This document shows positions 1 to 6,095 of a stretch of 10,021 bases of DNA, in pieces. The DNA is from Candidatus Margulisiibacteriota bacterium (lineage in GTDB: Bacteria > Margulisbacteria > Termititenacia > Termititenacales > Termititenacaceae). The translations under genes and the position numbers were made by a program. Every line of letters begins with the position of its first letter. Position 1 is the stretch's first letter. The stretch covers positions 1 to 10,021 of the forward strand of contig JAITIE010000073.1 of the NCBI GenBank assembly GCA_031279615.1, given 5' to 3'. The notes under the pieces are model-generated. The model was given only the letters and a program-made list of their open reading frames with translations, was not told where the DNA came from and searched no databases.

Positions 1-241
1 TTAACTCGTAACTTCGCCCGCTACGCGGGCTTGTTGTTTCACACGGCGCAGACTTCGTCTGCTTGCGCCTGTGTGCGACCACAAGTCGCCGCAGAAGTGT
101 CACTGGCTGACCGAGCCAGCGACCGGGTCTCTCTTCACGTCGTGCCTGCGGCACTTGTGAAGTTCGACGCACTTAACTTCGCGGCCTCGCCGCTTGTGAT
201 CTCATATTTTGGCACATCATAAAACCAACTTTCACGCCTGC
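1..241. repeat. Tandem hairpin-rich repeat, unit A
   Basis: First visible copy of a direct repeat of about 242 bp; position 1 corresponds to 242 and 484. It encodes no credible protein but holds a chain of inverted repeats: GCCCGC/GCGGGC (16-30), GCAGAC/GTCTGC (48-62) nested inside CACAC/GTGTG (40-75), GCGAC/GTCGC (75-89), a 10-position stem at 99-108/114-123 with one A-C mismatch, GTGCC/GGCAC (142-154) nested in CTTCAC/GTGAAG (133-162), and GCGGC/GCCGC (181-193). The last ~45 bp (197-241) are AT-richer and lack an obvious stem. The array may continue left of the window. Function unknown; the structure could act as DNA or as RNA, and the strand cannot be decided. Confidence 0.9.
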
Positions 242-483
242 TTAACTCGTAACTTCGCCCGCTACGCGGGCTTGTTGTTTCACACGGCGCAGACTCCGTC
301 TGCTTGCGCCTGTGTGCGACCACAAGTCGCCGCAGAAGTGTCACTGGCTGACCGAGCCAGTGGCTGGGTCTCTCTTCACGTCGTGCCTGCGGCACTTGTG
401 AAGTTCGACGCACTTAACTTCGCGGCTAAAGCCGCTTGTTATCTCATATTTCGGCACGTCATAAAACCAACTTTCACGCCTAC
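242..483. repeat. Tandem hairpin-rich repeat, unit B
   Basis: Second copy in direct orientation, nearly identical to the first, with roughly ten differences by eye. Several fall in hairpin loops (TTC to TCC at 295-297; CTC to TAAA at 427-430) or keep a stem: the 340-349/355-364 helix stays paired although three bases in or beside its 3' arm changed. All six hairpins of the first copy are present: stems 257-271, 281-316, 316-330, 340-364, 374-403 and 422-435. No credible coding potential on either strand. Confidence 0.9.
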
Positions 484-562
484 TTAACTCGTAACTTCGC
501 CCGCTACGCGGGCTTGTTGCTCTCACTTAACTTCGCGGCTAAAGCCGCTTGTTAAGTTCGAG
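484..562. repeat. Truncated third repeat copy abutting tRNA-Pro
   Basis: The first ~36 bp (484-519, with the GCCCGC/GCGGGC hairpin at 499-513) match the start of the other units. The sequence then jumps to the equivalent of 411-440, so about 130 bp of the middle is missing. The retained right part makes a longer hairpin than in the full copies: ACTTAAC (525-531) pairs with GTTAAGT (551-557) around the GCGGC/GCCGC stem (535-548). The copy ends one base before the tRNA-Pro discriminator, so it is immediately downstream of the tRNA genes in their transcription direction. It may help end or process the tRNA transcript, but no T-run follows on the minus strand. Confidence 0.8.
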
Positions 563-636
563 TCGGGGTGACAGGACTCGAACCTACGACTTCCTGCTCC
601 CAAAGCAGGCGCTCTAGCCAACTGAGCTACACCCCG
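563..636 (-). tRNA. tRNA-Pro (anticodon UGG)
   Basis: Read on the minus strand, this folds as a full cloverleaf: acceptor CGGGGTG/CACCCCG, D-stem GCTC/GAGC, anticodon stem CCTGC/GCAGG around loop TTTGGGA (anticodon TGG), and T-arm GTAGG-TTCGAGT-CCTGT. The discriminator is A (563). The next bases are CTC, so CCA is not encoded and must be added after transcription, presumably by the cca product encoded just upstream. It lies 14 nt after the CCA of tRNA-Gly, so the two are probably co-transcribed. Confidence 0.96.
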
Positions 637-650
637 TTGCCGCTTATTGC

Positions 651-726
651 TGGAGCGGACGAAGGGGTTCGAACCCTCGACATTCAGCTTGGAAGGCTGA
701 CACTCTACCAACTGAGTTACGTCCGC
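651..726 (-). tRNA. tRNA-Gly (anticodon UCC), CCA apparently encoded
   Basis: Minus-strand cloverleaf: acceptor GCGGACG/CGTCCGC, D-stem ACTC/GAGT, anticodon stem TCAGC/GCTGA around loop CTTCCAA (anticodon TCC), and T-arm GAGGG-TTCGAAC-CCCTT with one G-U pair. The discriminator is U (654), as usual for bacterial tRNA-Gly. It is followed directly by CCA (653-651), included here in the coordinates; the mature body without CCA is 654-726. It lies 54 nt downstream of cca on the same strand. Confidence 0.96.
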
Positions 727-4189: not shown

Positions 4190-4944
4190 GCCGTCAGCAC
4201 GCGGCTGCCGCCTTTGACGACGGCGATAGTGTGTTCGTACTGCGCGGAAAGTTGGCGGTCTTTGGTCACGACAGTCCAGCGGTCTTTTAAGACTTCCGTT
4301 TCCCAGCCGCCAGCGTTAATCATCGGTTCGACAGCAATGACCATGCCTTCCTGCAAAACCAGTCCCTTGCCGGCCTGACCGTAATGCGGCACGGACGGAG
4401 GCTCATGCATTTGCGTCCCGACGCCGTGGCCAACATACTCACGCACGACCGAAAAACCCAGCGGCTCGACATGCGACTGTATCGCGTGGCCGATGTCGCC
4501 GATAGTCGCGCCCGGCCGTATAATTTTAATCGCCTTGTCCAGAGCTTCGCGCGTCGCGTCGCACAATTTTCTGGCCTGCGGCGAAACCTTGCCGACCATG
4601 TATGTATAGCAGCTGTCGCCGATGTAGCCGTCCAGCGTTACGCCAATATCCACGCTGACAATATCGCCGTCTTGAATAATTTTTTGTTTGGCAGGAATGC
4701 CGTGCACGACTTCCTCATTGATCGACACGCACAGCGCCCAGTGATAACGCGGTTCGGCTTTGAAAGTTGGAAACAATCCATGTCTGTCGCAAAACGCGCA
4801 GGCAAAATTTTCTAAATCCATGGTGCTCAAGCCGGGTTTGATATACTGCCCCAGCTCCCGAAAAAATAAAGCGTTGTATTTGCCAGCTTCGGCCATTTTC
4901 ATTATTTCGTATTCGGATTTGAGAATTACCCGACCTTCTGCCAC
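4186..4944 (-). CDS. map: Methionine aminopeptidase, type I
   Basis: Removes the N-terminal methionine from nascent proteins; a two-metal cytoplasmic enzyme. The 252-residue product carries the complete active site at E. coli-like spacing: His81 (VVHGIP), metal ligands Asp99 (VSVDIG), Asp110 (GDSCYT), His173 (GHGVGTQMHEPP), Glu206 (AVEPMI) and Glu237 (YEHT), plus His180. The length matches type I enzymes without an N-terminal extension. GTG 4944 is preferred because AAGGGG lies 7 nt upstream and the product then begins close to the family's usual ILKSE start. A TTG at 4971 would only add an unconserved tail. It overlaps the dxr end by 19 nt and is the last gene of the minus-strand operon, at a place where rseP often follows dxr in other bacteria. 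No terminator is visible after it. Confidence 0.95.
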   Translation of the reverse strand: MAEGRVILKSEYEIMKMAEAGKYNALFFRELGQYIKPGLSTMDLENFACAFCDRHGLFPTFKAEPRYHWALCVSINEEVVHGIPAKQKIIQDGDIVSVDIGVTLDGYIGDSCYTYMVGKVSPQARKLCDATREALDKAIKIIRPGATIGDIGHAIQSHVEPLGFSVVREYVGHGVGTQMHEPPSVPHYGQAGKGLVLQEGMVIAVEPMINAGGWETEVLKDRWTVVTKDRQLSAQYEHTIAVVKGGSRVLTA

Positions 4945-6095
4945 AGGCTCGCCCCTTGTTGTTTTGCCCAATCCGCCGCCGCTAAAATATCATCCAGCGT
5001 TGGATTATTTATTGTATCATGCTTTTGCATAATGTCTTCCAGCAGGCGCGGGATTTCCGTAAATTTAAGTTTGTCCTGACAAAAAAGCTCCACTGCCGCC
5101 TCATTGGCCGCGTTAAAAACCGCTGGCATGGTGCCGCCGAGCCGTCCCGCTTCGTAAGCCAGAGCCAGCCCGCGGAAATTGCGCAAATCGGGCGCCTGAA
5201 AAGTCAGATTTTTTATTTCCAGCAAATTTAATTTCGGCACAGCGCCCGCGACGCGCTGCGGATAAGTCAGCGCGTGCTGAATCGGCAGGCGCATATCCGG
5301 CAGACCCAGCTGCGCCAGCACCGAACCGTCGCGGTACTCGACCAGCGAATGCACAATGGACTGCGGATGGATCAAGACTTCAATCCGCGCGTAAGGAACG
5401 CCGAACAACCAATGCGCTTCGATAACTTCCAGCCCCTTATTGACCAGCGTGGCGGAATCGATCGTGATCTTTTTGCCCATCTGCCAATTGGGATGTTTGA
5501 GCGCCGCGGCGGAGTTCTGCAACGCCAGCTGCGCGGCGGGCAGATCGCGAAAAGCGCCGCCGGAAGCGGTCAAAATCAACCGGCTGATAATTTCCACCGG
5601 ATAACTAAAATAACCGCCCGTAATTTCCGGCGGGCAGGCCTGCATAATCGCCGAGTGCTCGGAATCCACCGGCAGGAGTTTCACGCCATGCTTTTTGACC
5701 AGCGGCAGGATTATCTCGCCAGCGGCGACCAAAATCTCCTTATTGGCCAGCGCGATGTCTTTTTTTAATTTTACCGCCTCGAGCACCGGCAAAATACATT
5801 CCGTGCCGACCACCGCGGCTAGCACAAGATCCGCGTCGTCAGCGGCCGCGCGCGCCAGGCCGTCCGCTCCGGAAAACACCGCCAGGTCGGGAAATTCTTT
5901 TTTGACTTTCGCGGCGTCACTCGCGCGCGCGACGGAAACCAAATTTGGCTTAAACTCCTTGATCTGCCGCAGCAGCAATTCGACATTATTGCCAGCAGTC
6001 AAAGCGGTTACCCGATAATCCGGCAGATTTTTGATAACCGCCAGAGCCTGCGTGCCGATCGAGCCGGTGGAGCCGAGGATAGAAATTTTTTTCAT
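4926..6095 (-). CDS. dxr: 1-deoxy-D-xylulose 5-phosphate reductoisomerase
   Basis: Converts DXP to MEP with NADPH, the first committed step of the MEP isoprenoid pathway, in the cytoplasm. The 389-residue length is typical. Visible motifs: the NADPH-binding GSTGSIG (8-14), ANKE (117-120), metal ligands Asp144 and Glu146 in VDSEHSA, ASGGAFR (177-183), HPNWQMG with His201, KITIDSATLVNKGLE (209-223) with the third metal ligand Glu223, MRLPIQHAL (268-276) and NAANE (328-332). Start ATG 6095 overlaps the cdsA stop by 4 nt (ATGA), and no Shine-Dalgarno is present, so translation is probably coupled to cdsA. The pathway supplies IPP and, via FPP, the substrate of UppS encoded two genes upstream. Its presence means isoprenoids are made by the MEP rather than the mevalonate route. 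Confidence 0.97.
   Translation of the reverse strand: MKKISILGSTGSIGTQALAVIKNLPDYRVTALTAGNNVELLLRQIKEFKPNLVSVARASDAAKVKKEFPDLAVFSGADGLARAAADDADLVLAAVVGTECILPVLEAVKLKKDIALANKEILVAAGEIILPLVKKHGVKLLPVDSEHSAIMQACPPEITGGYFSYPVEIISRLILTASGGAFRDLPAAQLALQNSAAALKHPNWQMGKKITIDSATLVNKGLEVIEAHWLFGVPYARIEVLIHPQSIVHSLVEYRDGSVLAQLGLPDMRLPIQHALTYPQRVAGAVPKLNLLEIKNLTFQAPDLRNFRGLALAYEAGRLGGTMPAVFNAANEAAVELFCQDKLKFTEIPRLLEDIMQKHDTINNPTLDDILAAADWAKQQGASLWQKVG
4952..4957 (-). promoter_or_regulatory. Ribosome binding site inside dxr selecting the map GTG start
   Basis: The minus strand reads AAGGGG, 7 nt before GTG 4944, inside the last codons of dxr. It decides between GTG 4944 and the upstream TTG 4971, which has no such site. 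Confidence 0.65.

Follow-up and report, generated by a model that had tools for sequence, protein, structure and literature searches.

Layout of the array and the neighboring tRNA genes

The DNA analyzed here, which we call the window, is a stretch of 10,021 nucleotides that makes up an entire contig (G000:C154) of a metagenome-assembled genome (MAG; 1.02 Mb, 165 contigs, 80% complete) from Candidatus Margulisiibacteriota, within a bacterial family that we take to be termite-gut bacteria of the Termititenax group. The protein encoded by the open reading frame (ORF) at 4926-6095 had Ca. Margulisiibacteriota MAGs as its two closest named matches (89% identity). Positions 1-562 are rich in hairpins and comprise two direct copies of ~242 bp plus a 79-bp piece. 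The copies at 1-241 and 242-483 are identical at 230 of 242 aligned columns, and Tandem Repeats Finder reported 1-519 with a period of 241. Because the array extends to the contig end, this copy count covers the contig portion only. Compared with dinucleotide shuffles, the two units on the plus strand folded with z-scores of -4.43 and -5.18 and the whole of 1-562 on the minus strand with -7.31; no shuffle reached the native stability in any of these three tests. A hairpin-rich array of two units and a shorter piece, as a sequence-only reading of this DNA had described it, was thus borne out by both the alignment and the folding. ORFs inside the array are at most 92 residues long. Rfam models matched only two tRNAs in the window, at the gathering threshold as well as at E-values up to 1. 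An Rfam RNA family was rejected as an identity for the repeat, since the window and seven other loci gave only tRNA and LSU rRNA at E-values up to 1. A CRISPR array was likewise rejected, in agreement with the earlier reading: the unit itself is repeated whole, with no pattern of identical repeats and unique spacers.

The array reads in the tRNA direction on the minus strand, immediately 3' of tRNA-Pro(UGG). Its parts are listed below from the tRNA genes toward the contig end, with A denoting an element of two adjacent hairpins (H1 and H2) and B a second two-hairpin module; the words host and nested express our interpretation of the layout.

651-726, minus strand: tRNA-Gly(UCC), unoccupied, CCA encoded (ARAGORN)
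562-636, minus strand: tRNA-Pro(UGG), the insertion site, with no CCA after the discriminator base; ARAGORN takes the first C of the element as the last base of the tRNA
492-562, minus strand: simple A element right after the discriminator base of tRNA-Pro, with H1 at 520-562 and H2, including a 3' CGAG, at 488-519 (covariance model R1, 91.3 bits; motif scan)
442-487, minus strand: AT-rich, stem-poor tail, copy 2 (motif scan)
410-441, minus strand: H1-type hairpin of the interrupted host A element, unit 2 (motif scan; direct repeat D3)
368-409, minus strand: H1 hairpin of the nested A element, outer stem CTTCAC/GTGAAG, unit 2 (R1 match 341-409; motif scan)
303-367, minus strand: B module, two hairpins, unit 2 (model R2, 97 bits for 303-377; motif scan)
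280-309, minus strand: H2-type hairpin of the nested composite, unit 2, whose GCGCAAG overlaps the end of B (R1 match 250-309; motif scan)
246-279, minus strand: H2 hairpin of the host A element, unit 2 (motif scan)
200-245, minus strand: stem-poor tail, copy 1 (motif scan)
169-199, minus strand: H1-type hairpin of the host A element, unit 1 (motif scan)
127-168, minus strand: H1 hairpin of the nested A element, unit 1 (R1 match 100-168; motif scan)
62-126, minus strand: B module, unit 1 (R2, 92.5 bits for 62-136; motif scan)
39-68, minus strand: H2-type hairpin of the nested composite, unit 1 (R1 match 9-68; motif scan)
5-38, minus strand: H2 hairpin of the host A element, unit 1, with the contig end 4 nt beyond (motif scan)

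Starting from the tRNA, the order is the simple A element (562-492), the tail, an H1-type hairpin (441-410), the nested H1 (409-368), B (367-303), the nested H2 (309-280), and the host H2 (279-246), after which the unit repeats. The tails at 442-487 and 200-245 correspond to the stem-free, AT-richer tail noticed in the earlier reading. The same reading took the third piece for a deleted copy, and it does share blocks with the unit: 484-519 equals the unit's first 36 nt and 524-554 equals 411-441 (31 nt), both at 100% identity. The piece is nevertheless better read as a complete two-hairpin A element at 492-562. A plain A match was also found at tRNA-Pro(UGG) of the relatives G002 (locus L171) and G004 (L176), which supports the plain form as the older state. 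This makes insertion into the long units more plausible than deletion from the short piece. The 242-bp unit looks like an A element into which a second, B-carrying A element has been inserted, the whole then being duplicated in tandem. A pure assembly artefact is an unlikely source of the array, given that the units differ at 12 of 242 columns and that the family recurs in seven other assemblies.

A gene of the CCA-adding/poly(A) polymerase family lies at 781-2649 on the minus strand, beside the two tRNA genes, only one of which (tRNA-Gly) encodes CCA. It matched PF01743, and its best NCBIfam match was CCA tRNA nucleotidyltransferase, at 213 bits and thus under the cut-off of 290. Such a gene would fit with re-addition of CCA, and its proximity may be due to chance.

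Distribution of the A and B repeats

A DNA search of 95 genomes returned matches in all eight genomes of the same family and in none of the 87 others. For structure-aware counts, copies gathered by regular expression were built into two covariance models, R1 for the A element (15 aligned copies) and R2 for the B module (20 aligned copies). Model R1 gave 25, 79, 28, 6, 58, 51, 27, and 13 A matches in G000 through G007, a total of 287 in which at most 150 candidates were scored per genome and one composite can contribute several matches (the window contributes five). Under filters strict enough to lose weak matches, R1 found no A match in 66 further genomes of the phylum, and R2, searched with the stricter filters throughout, found 96 B matches in seven of the eight family genomes (none in G007) and none in the 66. 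The suggestion of a lineage-specific structured repeat is therefore strongly supported (8/8 family genomes versus 0/66 others of the phylum). A unit that occurs only here and shows no covariation would, according to the sequence-only reading, have told against its own view; neither part holds, given the 287 A matches and the very strong covariation reported below.

Carriage by phages or plasmids was rejected. Positions 242-562 of the window had no blastn match in either the phage or the plasmid collection. A 16-base A pattern matched 46 viral contigs; these hits were rejected when the covariance model found nothing in the 46 pieces. A 20-base B pattern matched no viral contig. Literature searches at the level of titles and abstract openings, mostly outside subscription papers, for Termititenax, tRNA-downstream repeats, repeats of Margulisbacteria or termite bacteria, and palindromic families returned no published description of the A element.

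B-like modules also occur away from complete A elements, alone in mnmA of G000 (L008, 1463-1538) and, by eye, reversed in a 5S fragment of G007 (L244); the B module may be mobile on its own. G003, which has only the six A matches, contains at two loci (L033, L040) B-like variants with a second stem of the CTCG/CGAG type, in series with H1-like hairpins. Several contigs of these MAGs (L206, L225, L234, L257, and the window) start within ~130 nt of an A or B element, and the repeats may therefore break assemblies and hide larger arrays.

The A element is a covarying pair of hairpins with strand-asymmetric loops

For sequence-level analysis, we took the window, 80 stretches around A matches (of 112 planned, and drawn from among the matches listed), and 20 stretches around B matches. 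The window and the 80 stretches together held 139 R1 matches. The A element measures ~60-75 nt and consists of two adjacent hairpins with a common grammar. Hairpin 1 has three variable pairs, a GA/GA internal loop, the stem RCTTMAC/GTKAAGY, an AA/GAM internal loop, and a variable stem that often ends in a C-GNA-G loop; hairpin 2 follows after a one-base linker and has NAC, an AA/GAM loop, a variable stem, and GTN'. The full grammar was found in 92 of the 139 matches, and the outer three pairs were complementary in 82 of these 92.

Stem pairing was maintained across extensive sequence change. Among the 139 matches (135 distinct rows), 96.4% of cells were paired and 497 were changed on both sides, compared with a shuffle mean of 131; double changes occurred in 19 of 22 pairs, and controls with slid partners were 25-39% paired. 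This alignment was fitted to the model and so leans toward pairing. In the seed alignment A1, made by MAFFT without structural input from members whose selection pattern dictated part of the outer stem, 11 of the 22 pairs showed double changes with no one-sided change. G-U pairs filled 38 of 2850 cells (1.3%) and A-C 18, with 87 other mismatches, of which 58 were G-A. For the B module, a candidate pseudoknot between the first loop and upstream GACC/AGCC was paired in 82.5% of cells, one of the four pairs being open in 9 of 20 copies.

The loops distinguish the two strands. The 184 hairpins comprised 95 GNA and 23 GNNA loops versus two TNC loops, the mirror form, and 90 of the 95 GNA loops were closed by C-G; counting the 124 distinct hairpins only, the numbers were 51, 16, and two. 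Loops of the GNA and GNNA types on G-C stems are described as extraordinarily stable DNA mini-hairpins (PMC4686876). RNA parameters favored the sense strand in 98 of 124 sequences and DNA parameters, less clearly, in 73 of 124; the DNA parameters express only a slight strand preference and gave no GNA bonus in a test hairpin. The repeat may thus also act at the RNA level, and of the alternatives in the sequence-only reading, a repeated non-coding RNA and a DNA-level structural element both stay plausible.

The near-identity of the window's units had led the sequence-only reading to propose recent amplification or ongoing homogenization. Recent amplification fits the tandem units. Homogenization of stems by gene conversion within a genome was not supported: identical inner cassettes of at least 11 nt were equally common between genomes. 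For H1, they made up 5 of 488 pairs within a genome versus 14 of 1403 between genomes (label shuffles at least as high in 223 of 500), and for H2, 6 of 941 versus 21 of 2975 (272 of 500). As the cassettes are no commoner within than between genomes, genome-wide homogenization is without support. At the same tRNA isoacceptor, copies from different genomes differ in at least one stem.

Paired stem changes of this kind could reflect selection on structure or template switching, which can create and mend hairpin stems and even produce multibase compensatory changes (PMC8794818). Mutation alone might then account for the repeats, with template switching keeping the palindromes perfect and tandem duplication spreading them, and no transposition involved; the small number of G-U intermediates among the changing pairs and the frequency of repeated flanks are what such a process would leave. 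It should, however, also erase the mismatched internal loops, which are conserved, and inversion of the spacer should mix GNA and TNC loops, which were seen 95 to 2. Nor can it place the same grammar in unrelated genes or give the clean insertion in mnmA described below. We regard mutation alone as very improbable, and selection on structure is favored because of the fixed mismatched loops and the GNA bias.

Movement into mnmA

The empty site in mnmA shows that the A element moves. In G001, mnmA contains a clean 60-bp A copy (GGAGA, element, CGCC) that is in frame and adds 20 residues; the genes of G004, G005, G006, and G007 are without this copy, and G002 and G003 had no mnmA match. At most 1 bp (A) is duplicated at the G001 site. 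The gene of G000 has a different A copy, in frame beside a tandem duplication of ~33 bp, as well as a B module near the G001 insertion site, where some residues are replaced. The G000 MnmA protein passes the NCBIfam MnmA model (332 versus 284 bits). Frames stayed open through 8 of 120 testable copies, only one of which (L194, mnmA) is gene-like.

Insertion sites and repeated flanks

Of the 139 matches, 23 directly adjoin the 3' end of a tRNA in sense, 22 are antisense with a tRNA no more than 190 nt away, and 38 are further downstream in sense or overlapping; 53 had no tRNA in the piece, and for three the tRNA was further off. Copies at tRNA 3' ends begin straight after the discriminator base. 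At these loci, which were selected for copies, an encoded CCA followed the discriminator in none of 22 occupied tRNAs versus 30 of 40 tRNAs without a copy there. Four isoacceptors, tRNA-Val(CAC), Ala(GGC), Val(GAC), and Val(UAC), are occupied in one genome and CCA-bearing in another, as matched by isoacceptor and not by gene orthology. The unoccupied tRNA-Val(CAC) of G005 reads GCCCACCAAG and the occupied one of G002 reads GCCCAC-TCGA...GTGA-CAAG, from which the copy may sit within the encoded CCA; the exact element ends are ambiguous by a few bases at the CCA and groEL sites. At tRNA-Trp, the copy follows an intact CCA, and this gene is counted among the 30.

Truncated tRNA copies hold 22 of the 139 matches by motif, with the junction CTGA/GCTA or alike. 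At L228 and L244, a full 5S rRNA gene (Rfam) is followed by a piece of its 3' half that carries a copy at the junction of GA and TGATACTG. At L174, L206, L221, and L236, two or three truncated 5' tRNA copies form a chain, and every one of them has an A element; the chains of L174, L221, and L236 sit upstream of an intact tRNA gene, and in tRNA-Gln chains, the repeated piece includes, by eye, a TATAAT-like box. Across 54 distinct flanks, A occupied position -1 in 39 and G position -2 in 27, with no fixed tetranucleotide. The replication-strand bias inferred from GC skew was weak (mean +0.036, s.e. 0.014, n = 51).

At loci without a tRNA, 18 long frames terminate close to a sense copy and 16 close to an antisense one. 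Seven of the 18 sense frames have their stop codon from -3 to +2 relative to the first base of the element, and three of these are groEL. A copy lies exactly at the groEL stop in G000, G001, G004, and G005, and G007 has an H1-like hairpin after the stop; no groEL copy was found in G003 or G006, and the G002 pattern match is not groEL. The copies of G000, G001, and G004 start with ACTGA, which begins no other of the 139 matches. Their H2 stems are all different, and in H1 the G000 copy differs from those of G001 and G004, which match each other; all stems are still paired.

These placements raise the question of whether the copies are mainly 3'-end RNA structures that serve the host, as trailer or 3'-UTR stabilizers or processing signals under selection, with movement old or incidental. 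The 23 copies directly after tRNAs in sense and the groEL copies exactly at the stop in four genomes fit this explanation, and differing yet paired stems behind a shared ACTGA start are expected from vertical descent with compensatory change. The greater stability of the sense strand as RNA (98/124) points the same way, and G-U, at twice the frequency of A-C, is a mild lean toward RNA. On the other hand, G-U was rare compared with the tRNA stems of the same loci, where it filled 68 of 1056 cells (6.4%) and A-C none, a control biased in that ARAGORN selects pairing. Moreover, copies take both orientations to ORFs and lie antisense in half-tRNAs, and the in-frame mnmA copies are not at 3' ends. 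A mainly host-serving role is hence unlikely in our judgment.

Sequence flanking the element was repeated within 300 bp for 52 of 108 testable copies versus none of 268 control positions taken from these loci. By site, this applied to 3 of 19 copies at tRNA 3' ends, 15 of 22 antisense near tRNAs, 12 of 24 downstream, and 22 of 43 others. Simple paste-in does not explain these repeated flanks, to which tandem amplification after insertion and unmasked neighboring modules contribute in some measure.

Candidate enzymes

One Y1_Tnp match was found in each of three family genomes (G001, G005, G006) and in three of four element-free outgroups. The G005 protein passes the model of REP-associated tyrosine transposases (RAYT; NF047646, 81.2 versus a cut-off of 80), and the G001 and G006 proteins look alike. 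No A match was present at any of the seven Y1_Tnp loci, those of the family being covered for up to ~1.5 kb on each side. G007, a 100% complete genome with 13 A matches, is without Y1_Tnp, and some of the other MAGs are incomplete. Spread driven by a reverse transcriptase was rejected, as RVT_1 was found in only two of the eight family genomes.

The presence of RAYT-like proteins in three genomes, together with the use of two hairpins as the mobile unit, which is the REPIN design (PMC3116915), would be consistent with a REPIN-type element moved by the family's own RAYT. Five of the eight genomes have no Y1_Tnp match, however, and the three family loci lack an A match and carry a different palindrome around TTTTTGCCAACTGGCATTTTT; in addition, GTAG occurs near the 5' end in only 2 of the 139 matches. 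Taken together, we consider movement by this RAYT quite improbable.

The palindrome around TTTTTGCCAACTGGCATTTTT lies upstream of the RAYT-like gene at L273, L274, and L275 (G006, G005, and G001, respectively) and is imperfect in G006. Sequence resembling TTTTTGCC is found beside A elements of one class, most of which start with GCGGAACTT (e.g., L224, L232, L237). The TTTTTGCC likeness, common to these A elements and the RAYT palindrome, suggests that a second repeat family may serve as a target.

A model for the element and the array

Beyond what the sequence-only reading proposed, the element is mobile, the array sits at a tRNA 3' end, and the 242-bp unit looks like a nested composite. That this is a mobile, structured, lineage-specific repeat is, in our view, close to certain. 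The explanation that we favor, and judge probable, is a lineage-specific miniature mobile palindromic element recognized by a putative enzyme as folded single-stranded nucleic acid; the last part, that the folded single strand is the substrate of such an enzyme, we hold to be more likely than not. One strand would fold while single-stranded, and a putative trans-acting enzyme would recognize both hairpins and paste the element in, duplicating one target base at most. Copies at tRNA 3' ends would survive because they are trimmed off during processing and an enzyme can restore the CCA, and copies in essential RNA genes presumably survive only next to an intact copy. In the window, A may have entered the 3' end of tRNA-Pro, followed by nesting of an A+B composite in a copy of it and then by tandem duplication.

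A more specific version can be offered tentatively. The repeat could represent a new class of element whose folded DNA strand is recognized through ultrastable C-GNA-G hairpins and the conserved GA/GA and AA/GAM loops, which targets tRNA CCA ends and other RNA-gene sites, whose insertion frequently comes with a short duplication nearby, so that an intact copy of the target persists, and which a putative enzyme moves.

With some hundreds of natural copies in which stems change as pairs and loops and internal loops stay fixed, structure-guided mobility can be read from comparative data. The data also point to a genomic parasite through which many tRNAs lose their encoded CCA, which inserts in frame into a tRNA-modification gene, and whose traces include truncated tRNA and 5S pieces. 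Such a parasite is relevant to the growth and breakage of genomes in uncultured bacteria, and possibly to the fragmentation of their assemblies.

Comparison with known systems

Integron attC sites have an R-box of the form RYYYAAC/GTTRRRY, with a GTT core at the crossover. The outer stem of A, RCTTAAC/GTTAAGY, fits the R-box, and recombination of a folded strand offers an analogy; the core is nevertheless GTG, not GTT, in 37 of 92 H1 stems, on which ground an attC cassette array was rejected, and no cassettes were seen. BOX and ERIC are modular or structured bacterial repeats, with boxB in tandem. The A element is likewise modular and structured, and its sequence and grammar appear to differ from theirs.

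REPs carry a GTAG tag at the hairpin base. REPs and REPINs are miniature mobile DNA predicted to form hairpins in single-stranded DNA or mRNA (PMC3116915), and A shares their small size, mobility, and hairpins. It differs in that GTAG is absent from 137 of 139 A matches (from 12 nt before to 8 nt after the start) and that Y1_Tnp is missing from five of the eight carriers and unlinked to the element. Rickettsia palindromic elements (RPEs) are characterized in PMC10969869 as small palindromic elements of one lineage, ~150 bp long, found in frame in metabolic genes. The three in-frame inserts in mnmA of two genomes (G001, G000), with frames open, resemble them; set apart by description, the A element has ~60-75 nt, two hairpins, and shared internal loops, and often lies at tRNA 3' ends and with truncated tRNA or 5S copies. 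Finally, ends-only elements of the IS200/IS605 group (PATE) have terminal hairpins, make no target duplication, and are thought to be moved by a transposase in trans (PMC7290912). A too has hairpins at both ends and no target duplication, judged from one clean site (G001 mnmA); in place of a fixed target of 4-5 nt, it has only a weak A at -1 and G at -2, and no full-length element bearing its ends came up among the loci analyzed. The A element therefore works like RPEs, REPINs, and ends-only IS200/IS605 elements, while departing from each of them in at least one tested defining feature.
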